From Candidatus Frackibacter sp. WG13 (GTDB taxonomy: Bacteria; Bacillota; Halanaerobiia; Halobacteroidales; Acetohalobiaceae), in NCBI RefSeq assembly GCF_900114655.1, contig NZ_FOTT01000021.1, forward strand, positions 1-52,398: 52,398 nucleotides of DNA. Reading direction: 5' to 3'. The number at the start of each line of letters is the position of its first letter. Position 1 is the first letter of the stretch. Of the stretch, positions 6,533 through 11,396 are shown one piece after another. The notes beneath the pieces were generated by a model that was not told where the DNA came from, made no database searches, and saw only the letters and a list, made by a program, of their open reading frames with translations. The position numbers and the translations under genes were made by a program.

Positions 6533-6559
6533 TGGTGATTGATTACAAGGAGGGTAAGT

Positions 6560-7591
6560 ATGAAAGATTTGATTAGAGAGCTACCAAAAGTAGAATTACA
6601 CCTACATTTAGATGGCTCTCTAAGAGTAGAGACGGTAGTTGATTTGGCTAAGGAATTAGAAGTTGAATTACCTACCAATAATAAAGAAGAGTTGAAGAGT
6701 TATTTACAGGTGGATGACGAATGTGAAAGCTTAGTTGAATATCTGAAGAAATTTGAATTTCCTTTAAAGGTCATGCAGACCAAAAATGCTTTACAGCGAG
6801 TCGCTTATGAGTTAGCTGAAGATGCTGCCCAAGATAATATAAAGTATTTAGAAGTTAGGTTTGCTCCTTTGATGTTAGCGTCAAAATTAAGTAAAGAAGA
6901 AGTAGTAGAAGCAGTCTTGAGTGGACTTAAGAAGGCAGAAAGAGATTACGATTTACAGACTAATATAATTCTTTGTTGTATGCGGCATCAGGACCCAAGT
7001 AAGAGTGTGGAGGTTGTGCAGTTAGCCAGTGATTATTTAGGTAAAGGGGTAGTAGGTGTAGACTTGGCCGGTGATGAAGCGGACTTCCCACCTGAGGAGC
7101 ACGAAAAGGCCTTTCAATTAGCAAAAGGTATCGGTCTACATCGTACTGTACATGCAGGGGAAGCAGCTGGAGCCGATAGCGTTCGTAAGGCTATTGATTA
7201 TTTAAACGCTGAAAGAATTGGACATGGTATTAGGGCTAAAGAGGATACTGAGACCTTAGAAATTATTCAGGAAAGCAAGATAGCGTTAGAGGTCTGTCCT
7301 ACTAGTAATGTACATACTAAAGTAGTTGACAATCTTAGTAACCATCCGGTTAAAGAGTATTTTGATTTAGGAGTTTTGGTTACTATCAATACTGATAATC
7401 GGACAGTATCTAATCTAACTTTAAGTGAAGAATATATAGCTTTGTATGAAAATTTTGATTTTGAAATAGAAGATATTAAGCAATTGATTTTGAATGGAGT
7501 AGAAGCGGCTTTTATTAATAAAGATGAAAGAGAAGAACTGATTAATAAATTTAAAGCTGAATTTACTGAATTAGAAGCAGAGTACCAATAG
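6560..7591 (+). CDS. add: Adenosine deaminase
   Basis: The ATG at 6560 follows AAGGAGG; a start 21 bases upstream has no ribosome site. The 343-residue product has the zinc-binding HLHLDGSLR at the N-terminus, HAGEAAG with its catalytic Glu, ERIGHG, and a late NTDNRTVS in place of the commoner NTDDP. It converts adenosine or deoxyadenosine to inosine in purine salvage. The NTDN variant keeps the metal-binding Asp. An adenine- or aminodeoxyfutalosine-type specificity cannot be excluded by reading alone, but the length and motifs fit adenosine deaminase best. Confidence 0.88.
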   Translation: MKDLIRELPKVELHLHLDGSLRVETVVDLAKELEVELPTNNKEELKSYLQVDDECESLVEYLKKFEFPLKVMQTKNALQRVAYELAEDAAQDNIKYLEVRFAPLMLASKLSKEEVVEAVLSGLKKAERDYDLQTNIILCCMRHQDPSKSVEVVQLASDYLGKGVVGVDLAGDEADFPPEEHEKAFQLAKGIGLHRTVHAGEAAGADSVRKAIDYLNAERIGHGIRAKEDTETLEIIQESKIALEVCPTSNVHTKVVDNLSNHPVKEYFDLGVLVTINTDNRTVSNLTLSEEYIALYENFDFEIEDIKQLILNGVEAAFINKDEREELINKFKAEFTELEAEYQ

Positions 7592-7614
7592 ATTATATAA
7601 ATAGAACTGTAGAG

Positions 7615-7896
7615 TAATATCGGCTGAAAATTTAGTCTTCGTACATAATCGATTGATGTTAGCCATTTAGAATGTAGCAGACTGGAATAAATAAAGCATG
7701 GTAAAAGTTGTTTTCTGTTTGACCGTTAGGGAGTTTGAAAACAACCCATGCTTTATTTATGGAAGTCGTTGCGGAATTCGTAGGCGGTATCAATTGATTA
7801 TGTAAGAACCTAGATTTCAAACATGATTGAGGTGAACAAATTTATAAGGGCTTACGAACGCTTATAAACATTTAAGGTTATTTAGCCGATAATATT
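7615..7896. other. Large structured element of unknown identity (candidate ncRNA or palindromic mobile element)
   Basis: The 328-base gap between add and bshC holds no convincing gene but is packed with nested complements. An outer stem pairs AATATCGGCT (7616-7625) with AGCCG...ATATT (7884-7896, small bulge). Arm one pairs TACATAATCGATTGA (7642-7656) with TCAATTGATTATGTA (7790-7804). It continues through GCAGACT/AGTC..TGC to a perfect 15-bp stem (7687-7701 with 7746-7760) and then a perfect 9-bp stem (7707-7715 with 7737-7745), closed by a 21-base loop. Arm two pairs TTTATAAG (7841-7848) with CTTATAAA (7861-7868). The total resembles a three-way junction with one long rod. I do not recognise it as tmRNA, RNase P RNA, SRP RNA or a T-box. 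A 6S-like RNA or a MITE remain possible. Confidence 0.6.
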
Positions 7897-7919
7897 CCTG
7901 TAGTCTTTAGGAGTGTGAT

Positions 7920-9560
7920 ATGATGACAGAAGAATCAGTGATTGGGAATCAACTTTATCATGATTATCTATTTAATTTTGAAGCAGTAGCTGATTTTTAT
8001 GAATATGACTCAAGACAAGAAGTAGCGTTTACAGAACGGGTTAGCTATCTAAATAATAATTACCAGCAGGATAGAGATCATTTGGCGGCAATTTTAAAAG
8101 ATTATAATCAGAAATTAGGTTGTAGTCAAGAAGTAATCACCAATATAGAAGCTTTAAAAAGAAACGAAACCGGAGCAGTAGTTACCGGTCAGCAGGCTGG
8201 CATCTTTACTGGACCTCTTTATACAGTCTATAAAGCAATAAATGCTATCTTATTAGCAGAACGGACTGGTAAGCTTACTGATTCTAAAGTAGTTCCTATC
8301 TTTTGGGTAGCTAGTGAAGACCATGACTTTCAGGAGATTAATCATATTAATTTGGTCAATGCTAATAATCAGTTAGAGACTGTTGAATTAGTGGGAGATT
8401 ACATAGCCACATCTATTGGCAATATTGAAGTAAACGAAGATCTCTTTAAGTTAATAGATCGTTTAGCTGAAGAGACTTATGATACAGAATTTAAAGAACG
8501 AATAATTTCTAACTTAAGAAACTTAGCTCAAGAAGCAGATGACTTAGCAGAATGGTTTAGCAGAATAATGTTAGATCTATTTAATGATTATGGTTTGATT
8601 ATCTTTGATCCTATGTGGCCTGAAATTAGGCAATTAAGCAGTGGTATCTATCAAGAAATCATCTGTAAACAGTCTGAAATAAAAGAGAAGTTTCAGCAGA
8701 CTAATTATCAGTTGAACGAAGCCGGATATCCTCTACAGGTTGATAAGAGTATGGATAATTCCCATCTCTTTATCTATTTTGACCAAGAAAGAAATTCCCT
8801 TTTATCAAAGACCAAAGCTGGGGGCAAGCATTATTTTGAGACTCGGAATCAGAAGGTGCAAGTTAATCAAGAGGATATACTACAGATGATTGAGCAAGAA
8901 CCTGTTCGCTTTAGTCCTAATGTAGTCTTAAGACCGATAGTGCAAGAGTATCTTCTGCCAACTGTCGCCTATGTAGGAGGCCCAGGAGAGATAGCTTATC
9001 ATAGTCAATTAAAAGGCTTATATTCTATCTTTGATTTACAAATGCCGATTTTATATCCAAGAGAGAGCATTACAGTGGTTGAGGCAAGGTTAGCTAGTTA
9101 TATGGATAAGTACGGATTAACTAGAAAGGATATAATTAATTTTAATTTGGACAAACGATTAGAAGAAGAGTTAGCAGATAAAGATGAGTTAGATATTCCG
9201 CAGATCTTTAATGATGTTAAAGACAAATTTGCTTGCGATTATCAAGAATTAATTAAGCAGATAAGTGAAATAGATCAGAATTTACAGCAGTTAGGGGAAC
9301 AGAATCTAGAGCGGATTATTGGACAAGTTGACTATCTAGAAGAAAAAACACAACAATTTCACAAAAGGAATAGTGAAGTTTTAGTTAGACAATTCAAAAA
9401 ATTGAAGAATAACCTATTGCCTAATCAGAACTTACAAGAAAGATACTTAAATATCTTTCCGTATTTAATTAAATATAGTCATACTTTTATTGATGACTTA
9501 GTAGATTACTTTGAATTAGAATTTACACATCGTCTATATTACTATCGAGGTGATAAATAA
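7920..9560 (+). CDS. bshC: Bacillithiol synthase, cysteine-adding enzyme BshC
   Basis: This 546-residue protein matches the usual BshC length and carries family features: VVTGQQAGIFTGPLYT near residue 80, FWVASEDHDFQEI near 130, and a late PTVAYVGGPGEIAYHSQL. A Gln-rich coiled coil follows near 440-500. It adds cysteine to glucosamine-malate in the last step of bacillithiol synthesis. Two ATGs at 7920 and 7923 both suit the AGGAG at 7909-7913. bshB1 and bshA follow directly, so the whole pathway is one operon. Confidence 0.93.
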   Translation: MMTEESVIGNQLYHDYLFNFEAVADFYEYDSRQEVAFTERVSYLNNNYQQDRDHLAAILKDYNQKLGCSQEVITNIEALKRNETGAVVTGQQAGIFTGPLYTVYKAINAILLAERTGKLTDSKVVPIFWVASEDHDFQEINHINLVNANNQLETVELVGDYIATSIGNIEVNEDLFKLIDRLAEETYDTEFKERIISNLRNLAQEADDLAEWFSRIMLDLFNDYGLIIFDPMWPEIRQLSSGIYQEIICKQSEIKEKFQQTNYQLNEAGYPLQVDKSMDNSHLFIYFDQERNSLLSKTKAGGKHYFETRNQKVQVNQEDILQMIEQEPVRFSPNVVLRPIVQEYLLPTVAYVGGPGEIAYHSQLKGLYSIFDLQMPILYPRESITVVEARLASYMDKYGLTRKDIINFNLDKRLEEELADKDELDIPQIFNDVKDKFACDYQELIKQISEIDQNLQQLGEQNLERIIGQVDYLEEKTQQFHKRNSEVLVRQFKKLKNNLLPNQNLQERYLNIFPYLIKYSHTFIDDLVDYFELEFTHRLYYYRGDK

Positions 9561-9561
9561 G

Positions 9562-10272
9562 ATGACAATAGATTTACTAGCATTTGGAGCACATCCTGAT
9601 GATGTAGAGATTGGGGCAGGAGGGACTTTAATTAAGCACCAACAAGCCGGTTATAAAGTTGCAATTATCGACTTAACAGCTGGTGAAATGGGGAGCAATG
9701 GTACAGCGGAGATTAGAGCTAAGGAATCCCAAACTGCAGGTGAAATTATGGGGTTAGAATTTAGAGATTGCTTAGGGCTACCAGATGGGAAAGTTAAGAA
9801 TGATTCTAAAGCGATCAAATTAGTAGTAGAAAAGATTAGGAAGCATAGGCCACAAATAGTCTTAGCTCCTTACTGGCAAGACAGACATCCAGACCATATT
9901 AATAGTAGCCAGTTAATAACAGAAGCTTGTTTTAAAGCAGGACTAAGGAAATTCGATGCTAGCGGTGAACCTTATCGTCCCCAAGCAGTAGTCTATTATT
10001 TCTTAGCTCAAGTAGATGAGCCAGACTTTATAGTAGATATTTCAAATGTGTATGAGACTAAGTTGGAAGCTTTATTTGCCCATGATTCACAAGTAAATCA
10101 TACAAAAAAGAACAGTTTCAAAACTGTTTTGAATACTTCGAACTTCTTAAAGAAATTAGATGCTAGATTTAAGTATTTAGGTTCTTTAATTAACACTGAA
10201 GCAGGAGAAGGCTTTAAATATAAGAAAGCCATCGAATTATCTGATTTAACAACTTTAAGGGGAGGTGTTTAG
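9562..10272 (+). CDS. bshB1: Bacillithiol biosynthesis deacetylase BshB1
   Basis: The ATG at 9562 lies one base after the bshC stop, and the GAGGTG site sits within the end of bshC. The 236-residue LmbE/PIG-L-type protein has the zinc motif AHPDD (residues 11-15), then LTAGEMGSNG and a second metal-ligand region PDHINSS. It removes acetyl from GlcNAc-malate to give glucosamine-malate. Position between bshC and bshA makes BshB1 more likely than a general GlcNAc deacetylase. Confidence 0.94.
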   Translation: MTIDLLAFGAHPDDVEIGAGGTLIKHQQAGYKVAIIDLTAGEMGSNGTAEIRAKESQTAGEIMGLEFRDCLGLPDGKVKNDSKAIKLVVEKIRKHRPQIVLAPYWQDRHPDHINSSQLITEACFKAGLRKFDASGEPYRPQAVVYYFLAQVDEPDFIVDISNVYETKLEALFAHDSQVNHTKKNSFKTVLNTSNFLKKLDARFKYLGSLINTEAGEGFKYKKAIELSDLTTLRGGV

Positions 10273-10274
10273 AA

Positions 10275-11396
10275 TTGAATATAGGTATCATCTGTTATCC
10301 TTCCTATGGAGGAAGTGGAGTTGTAGCTACAGAATTAGGAAAGCAGCTAGCCAATCGAGACCATAAAGTACATTTTGTTAGTTATGAGCCGCCGTTTAGA
10401 TTAGACCAATATTATGAAAATATCTATTTTCATGAAGTAGAGATACCTTCTTATCCACTATTTAAGTATCCGCCGTATTCATTAGCTTTAGCTAATAAGA
10501 TATCTGAATTGATTTCGGAAGAAGAATTAGATATTATTCATGCTCATTATGCAATTCCACATTCTTTATGTTCTTATATAGCAAAAGAAGTTAAGAAAGA
10601 GGCTGATGTTAAAGTAGTAACTACCTTGCACGGTACAGATATTACTTTAGTAGGAAATCAGAGTTCATTTGAGAATATAACGAAATTTAGTATCGAAGCA
10701 AGTGATGGCATTACAGCAGTCTCCGAGAACTTACGTGAAGAGACACTAGAGGCTTTTGATTTAGCAGAAGATAGAGTTAGGACTATCTATAACTTTGTAG
10801 ACACTAGAGAATATATGAGGACTGAGCCAGAAGAACCACTCAAATTAGCTAGTGGGGAAGATAAGATTATAACGCATATATCTAACTTTCGCGATGTTAA
10901 GAATATTCCAGATGTAATTAAGATATTTGCTTTAATTAATAAAGAAGTCAGTAGTAAACTACTCTTAATCGGTGATGGACCTAATCGTCATCAAGCTAAA
11001 GATCTAGTAGCTAAATTAAATTTAGAAGATAAAGTCTATTTCTTAGGGAAACAGGATAATATAATACCGCTTCTATCAATCTCTGACCTCTTCTTATTAC
11101 CATCTCAAAAGGAGAGCTTTGGTTTAGTCTCAGTTGAAGCTATGGCCTGTAAAGTTCCAGTCATCGCCTCCGATGCCGGAGGGATTCCAGAAGTAGTCTT
11201 AAACGAAGTAACCGGATTCTTAGCAAAACCAGGTGCAGTTAAAGAGATGGCTAAAAAAGGAGTAGAATTACTAAAGAACGAAGAAATGCATCATGAAATC
11301 GCCAAGAATGCTAGACACTGGGTAGTAACTAAGTTTAGTGCCGAAAATATTGTTGACAAGTATGAAGCCTACTATTATGAATTAATTAATAATTAA
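10275..11396 (+). CDS. bshA: GT4 N-acetylglucosaminyl-malate synthase BshA
   Basis: A TTG start at 10275 has GGAGGTG seven bases before it, inside the end of bshB1. The 373-residue protein begins MNIGIICYPSYGGSGVVATE, the family signature. It has the GT4 donor-site region ESFGLVSVEAMACKVPVIAS with its conserved Glu residues. It joins GlcNAc from UDP-GlcNAc to L-malate, the first step of bacillithiol synthesis. The gene order C-B-A is the reverse of the reaction order. A terminator follows. Confidence 0.94.
   Translation: MNIGIICYPSYGGSGVVATELGKQLANRDHKVHFVSYEPPFRLDQYYENIYFHEVEIPSYPLFKYPPYSLALANKISELISEEELDIIHAHYAIPHSLCSYIAKEVKKEADVKVVTTLHGTDITLVGNQSSFENITKFSIEASDGITAVSENLREETLEAFDLAEDRVRTIYNFVDTREYMRTEPEEPLKLASGEDKIITHISNFRDVKNIPDVIKIFALINKEVSSKLLLIGDGPNRHQAKDLVAKLNLEDKVYFLGKQDNIIPLLSISDLFLLPSQKESFGLVSVEAMACKVPVIASDAGGIPEVVLNEVTGFLAKPGAVKEMAKKGVELLKNEEMHHEIAKNARHWVVTKFSAENIVDKYEAYYYELINN

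Follow-up and report, generated by a model that had tools for sequence, protein, structure and literature searches.

Bacterial MITEs (non-autonomous transposable elements) with strong hairpins and outward promoters include Correia/NEMIS of Neisseria, ERIC, RUP, bcr1, and QMITE, as described in the cited sections of PMC10969869 and also PMC3733652. REP elements are organized into GTAG- and CGTC-tagged superfamilies and, according to the cited sections of PMC3733652, are 20–40 bp long, carry their signature at one end, and often occur together with RAYT genes. Palindromic elements derived from IS200/IS605 also form hairpins and include non-autonomous derivatives. IS605 insertions have neither target duplications nor terminal inverted repeats.

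The DNA analyzed here (the window) is a stretch of 52,398 nucleotides from Candidatus Frackibacter sp. WG13. A 286-bp MITE is inserted between its genes add and bshC, with 5 bp of the target duplicated (Table 1). Like Correia/NEMIS, ERIC, RUP, bcr1, and QMITE, as far as the cited sections describe them, the element is short, non-coding, and intergenic, and has terminal inverted repeats and target duplications. It shares with Correia-type elements the stable hairpin fold and the promoter-like ends near genes (PMC10969869, cited section). In contrast to these MITEs, for which the cited sections describe no trans-phylum core, the core of this element has a covarying rod with a tip that recurs in five or more phyla, and the fold is retained in copies at an orthologous locus. 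The palindromes, species-specific stems, conserved short signature, occurrence in many phyla, and occasional head-to-head arrangement resemble those of REP elements in the cited sections of PMC3733652. However, the signature here caps a rod of ~160 nt, there are no consistent Y1 genes, and target duplications are present. The element also differs from IS605 in having target duplications and terminal inverted repeats. The element has the defining features of a MITE, apart from an autonomous partner, for which no candidate was found, and its core signature is common to several phyla.

Table 1. Positions of the element and its parts in the window
Feature	Position	Strand	Evidence
Target-site duplication CTGTA, left copy, 5 bp	7607..7611		direct reading
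Left terminal inverted repeat GAGTAATATCGGCTGAA	7612..7628		inverted-repeat search, copy alignment
Whole non-autonomous element (MITE)	7612..7897	+	genome copies, target duplications, empty add-bshC sites in three relatives
Core rod module CATAATCGATTGAT...ATCAATTGATTATG, also occurring without outer parts	7644..7802	+	copies, covariance model, covariation
Upper rod, 5' arm	7680..7701	+	inverted-repeat search; compensatory changes
Rod tip TGTTTGACCGTTAGGGAGTTT, motif common to several phyla	7716..7736	+	motif scans
Upper rod, 3' arm	7746..7767	+	inverted-repeat search; compensatory changes
Second 8-bp arm, 5' side TTTATAAG	7841..7848	+	RNA fold
Second 8-bp arm, 3' side CTTATAAA	7861..7868	+	RNA fold
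Promoter-like site TAAACA-17-GATAAT, directed outward into bshC (putative function)	7865..7893	+	consensus match only; right ends near ribosome-binding sites
Right terminal inverted repeat TTTAGCCGATAATATTC; many more copies of this end in the genome	7881..7897		inverted-repeat search, genome scans
Target-site duplication CTGTA, right copy	7898..7902		direct reading

Structure and dispersal of the element

The intergenic gap of 328 bases (7592–7919) lies between add, encoding adenosine deaminase (6539–7591, stop at 7591), and bshC (7920–9560, start at 7920), both identified by family calls. The first-pass annotation described the gap as almost filled by a nested palindrome, and folding confirms the structure. 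All stems that had been named (the outer stem, those of 15 and 9 bp, and the second arm of 8 bp) are part of the predicted RNA structure of 7610–7899. Its energy is −100.2 kcal/mol, compared with −57.9 ± 5.4 kcal/mol for shuffled sequences (z = −7.9), and none of 200 shuffles folded as well. The z-score is −7.2 for the DNA fold of the same segment and −8.1 for its opposite strand. The inverted-repeat search identified the arms 7638–7657/7789–7808 in addition to those of the terminal repeats and the upper rod. The limits of 7615–7896 proposed earlier are close to the ends of the element at 7612 and 7897, which are set by the target-site duplications.

The element contains no open reading frame of at least 80 amino acids, and its 17-nt terminal inverted repeats are 82% complementary. 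A BLASTN search of its own genome gave 24 matches, of which five, the window copy included, are full or near full length. The other full or near-full copies, located on contigs 32, 17, 9, and 37, have identities of 89–94%, and the remaining matches are partial. The outer ends of the element are GAGTAATATC on the left and GATAATATTC on the right. All seven copies read in the genome have their own 5-bp target duplication (CTGTA in the window, and TATTG, ATTTA, AAATT, TTCAT, AGTTA, and TTAAT), compared with one match in 42 pairings of foreign flanks. The duplication directly abuts the left end in four of the seven copies, and 1, 3, or 7 extra bases are present in the other three. The add-bshC junctions of three relatives from the same family (G001, G002, and G004) are a few tens of bases long and contain no element. 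When the element and one CTGTA are removed from the window, the resulting junction can be aligned visually with the G002 junction. The dispersed copies, terminal repeats, target-site duplications, and empty sites in relatives identify the feature as a MITE, which the earlier annotation had offered as an alternative, with the outer stem as terminal repeat.

A single-copy structured RNA of the add-bshC region, such as the 6S-like RNA that had also been suggested, has only the long rod shape in its favor. The element is multi-copy and is absent from the locus in three relatives, which refutes this reading, and it has no Rfam match. None of the Rfam 15 families, including 6S, scored above the gathering threshold over the element or the related copies tested, and a search with the element at E up to 5 gave just two matches, far below threshold.

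In genome G030, from another family of the class, the ends of the element are different (AAGGCTCTTTCATAAT...TTATGCAAGACGCTT), and exact 4-bp target duplications flank 11 of 12 copies, compared with a mean of 1.2 and a maximum of 6 in permutations. The ends and the duplication lengths differ between the Frackibacter genome (5 bp) and G030 (4 bp), and the copies may have been moved by one transposase or by two. The element would be mobilized in trans, probably by a DDE-type transposase, with which the ends and duplications are compatible. No transposase or autonomous transposon with matching ends was found in either of the two genomes; it could be lost or too divergent. At locus L036 of the Frackibacter genome, an outer element contains the palindrome CATAATCAATTGATTATG alone in the place where the core would be. 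The window also contains an IS605-like tnpA/tnpB pair at 3–1546. The Y1 transposase of the pair is encoded at 1076–1546 on the minus strand (Pfam Y1_Tnp match at 1082–1435), and the TnpB-like reading frame at 3–1079, also on the minus strand, runs off the start of the window. A Y1 gene on contig 35 matches with the same score.

Covariation of the core rod

In its own genome and in other genera, the core segment also occurs by itself, with the outer parts missing. The covariance model R1 matches the window copy at 7642–7807 with 177 bits, and the core model finds about 17 copies in the Frackibacter genome, 16 in G030, and matches in 19 of 61 genomes searched. In an alignment of 18 cores, 29 of 53 pairs exhibit two-sided compensation. 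Among 40 distinct cores from the class (one genome per species), 1899 cells are Watson-Crick pairs, compared with 1224 ± 16 when the partners are shuffled, a shuffle-based score that is inflated by relatedness. At least two Watson-Crick types occur in 51 of the 53 pairs and at least three in 38. Halanaerobium-type genomes contain copies at shared loci. From the protein sequences, we take the adjoining gene to encode a membrane transporter-like protein at one locus (in six genomes), a YchF-like GTPase at another (in four), and a glycogen phosphorylase-like protein at a third (in three). At the transporter-like locus in five genomes, 152 pair cells have changed on both sides and are still paired, and 52 are broken. 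The orthologous copies keep the tip and the pairing while the stem sequence turns over. The core, a module of a widespread family of long hairpins with imperfect pairing, is kept as a folded single strand and its fold is under selection, because the rod and tip covary and the pairing persists between orthologous copies. The pairing had looked selected in the first-pass annotation, and for the core this impression is supported by the strong covariation. The related idea of a new non-coding RNA agrees with the covarying structure of the core, but not with the many copies insofar as a single-copy RNA gene was meant.

Quasi-palindrome correction is known from bacterial palindromes. Complementarity could be kept only by intrastrand template switching together with repeated transposition, giving a fold without function. 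The arms are long and the copies are clearly mobile, and switching from arm to arm could help to keep the pairing without any function. Template switching turns mismatches into matches, yet the most conserved parts of the core across phyla include the unpaired sides of the tip and the internal loops, which this process does not preserve, and the orthologous Halanaerobium-type copies retain the tip as their stems turn over. These observations argue against template switching as the sole cause, which we consider improbable. A transposable element with a selected folded core is the reading in which we have high confidence.

Alternatively, the core could itself function as a transcribed regulatory RNA gene or a cis-element, with the transposon ends as its carrier. 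Such an RNA would explain covariation of the kind found in selected RNA and the conserved positions of copies in several genomes. When the tip column, which is entirely U-G, is excluded, the 40 cores contain 53 G-U cells compared with 27 A-C cells, which weakly suggests RNA folding of the + strand; the excess is small, the sequences are related, and the alignment was fitted to the model and thus leans towards structure. However, the orientation and gene context of the copies are inconsistent, antisense to the adjoining gene at three orthologous Halanaerobium-type loci and sense at others, and the search for a terminator at the window copy was negative. An RNA gene or cis-element of this kind is therefore rather unlikely, and the mobile element with a selected core remains the preferred reading. 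An optional module of ~50 nt (GCACCTAGGGCACTCCCTATTTAAATAGACCATACAAGAACAGTTTAAGGTT) occupies an identical position in the rod in L249, L250, and L252 of G030, two complete copies and one truncated copy, and in L028 on contig 37 of the Frackibacter genome. Shared by two families of the class, the module seems to represent a structural variant of the rod.

The rod tip in other phyla

The tip motif TGTYTGA-NN-GNA-NN-GAGTT forms the apex of helices in Bacteroidota, Campylobacterota, Clostridia, Gammaproteobacteria, and Nitrospirota. In this motif, a GNA-type loop closes a stem of 2 bp, which has GA/GA and T-rich flanks; in the window copy, a 4-nt GTTA loop replaces GNA. A scan for TGTTTGACCG-N(1-2)-AGGGAGTTT, with one genome per species, identified at least 114 stretches in Bacteroidota, Campylobacterota, Clostridia, Gammaproteobacteria, Nitrospirota-type, and other genomes. 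Among the matches listed, 60 of 74 distinct tips are closed by at least seven contiguous pairs, compared with 4.3% of shuffled flanks, and the stem sequences below the tips are unrelated. Among 38 distinct tips, 29 have only Watson-Crick pairs in the 2-bp stem, compared with 8.1 after shuffling (maximum 18), and this stem occurs as CC/GG, GC/GC, AC/GT, CT/AG, GT/AC, and TC/GA. The relaxed motif TGTYTGA-NN-GNA-NN-GAGTTW has matches in 27 of 28 genomes, most of which were picked for already having matches, and the reversed control has almost none. The core model built from Halanaerobia matches copies in Tepidibacter, Clostridium, Thermodesulfovibrionia, and Marivirga with E of about 1e-7 to 1e-12. 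The matches span the whole model in Clostridia and Bacteroidota, and are long but partial in Thermodesulfovibrionia. A kink-turn reading of the tip was dropped, since that register would leave the outer stem unpaired.

Several observations concern the surroundings of the tip rods. A conserved tail CTTGATTTTTTGCTTCGTTTTTTCATCAAGGAAAAAATGAAG, with two stems that interlock like an H-type pseudoknot, is located downstream of the tip rod in L137:4640-5080, L106, L136, and other loci of Bacteroidota and Gammaproteobacteria. Head-to-head inverted pairs of tip rods ~160–260 bp apart are found in Methylophaga and Arcobacter genomes (contigs 26, 32, and 46 of G069; L126). A viral origin was considered and rejected: the CC/GG tip has no match in viral contigs, and the GC/GC version is present in six (L310–L315). 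A plasmid search with one Methylophaga element gave no match.

Loops of the GNA type are very stable in single-stranded DNA, which counts in favor of a REP-like element that a Y1 (RAYT) transposase would move in single-stranded form. The tip rods are, as such an element would be, imperfect intergenic palindromes with species-specific stems and sometimes form head-to-head pairs. However, searches of three genomes with the motif (Sphingobacterium, Arcobacter, and Myroides) found no Y1 transposase. Y1 transposases make no target-site duplications, and the duplications at the copies contradict such movement for Halanaerobia. Both the signature and the size differ from those of the REP/RAYT group, membership of which was rejected, and a REP-like origin is very doubtful. 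No transposase family was found to recur beside the tip in other phyla.

Apart from its carriage by a mobile element with a selected core, the tip would be recognized in folded form by a trans-acting factor of the same kind in many bacteria. Recognition would most likely take place at the RNA level, in transcripts that run through the element, to which we give somewhat less than an even chance. We tentatively propose, with similar reserve, that the rods belong to a single class of structured repeats, mobile or domesticated, that occurs across bacteria and has not been described before, in which the tip is read by a factor common to many phyla and the ends and stems change freely. Literature searches by sequence and topic found no description of the tip motif in open-access papers, and an earlier description is possible. 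To our knowledge, most bacterial MITE families are restricted to a single genus or family and depend on a single transposase. In contrast, a single covarying tip, absent from Rfam, is combined here with unrelated stems and transposon ends in bacteria of several phyla. This raises the question of which protein or process common to these bacteria reads the tip, as RNA or as single-stranded DNA.

The right end and bshC

The longer form of the right-end motif has 30 matches in the Frackibacter genome, where the control has 3; in sister genera its frequency is that of the control. The right end also recurs alone in the genome. Most or nearly all of the copies read are positioned 9–12 nt before a ribosome-binding site, upstream of genes of many kinds; this spacing holds for the better-matching copies, and several weak matches inside genes are chance. 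Lone right ends lie at this distance before the ribosome-binding sites of unrelated genes in L048, L052, L053, L055, L061, L064–L066, L069, and L071. In eight copies with further element sequence, the right end points at the start codon, and the copy on contig 11 (L007) is reversed. A sigma-28 promoter was considered, as the right end resembles GCCGATAA, but the downstream genes are housekeeping rather than flagellar, and sister genera are at control level.

A promoter in the right end is predicted from the sequence with about even confidence. The candidate TAAACA-17-GATAAT is a consensus match that shuffles of the region attain more often than observed. The right terminal repeat may supply an outward promoter just upstream of the ribosome-binding site of bshC, and the insertion would place a long hairpin in the add-bshC transcript. 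The lone right ends may be relics of older insertions, kept for the promoter. Directly downstream of the element, bshC, bshB1, and bshA form a bacillithiol synthesis cluster at 7920–11396. The thiol-synthesis gene bshC may in this way be uncoupled from its upstream neighbor by a mobile hairpin whose end resembles an outward promoter.
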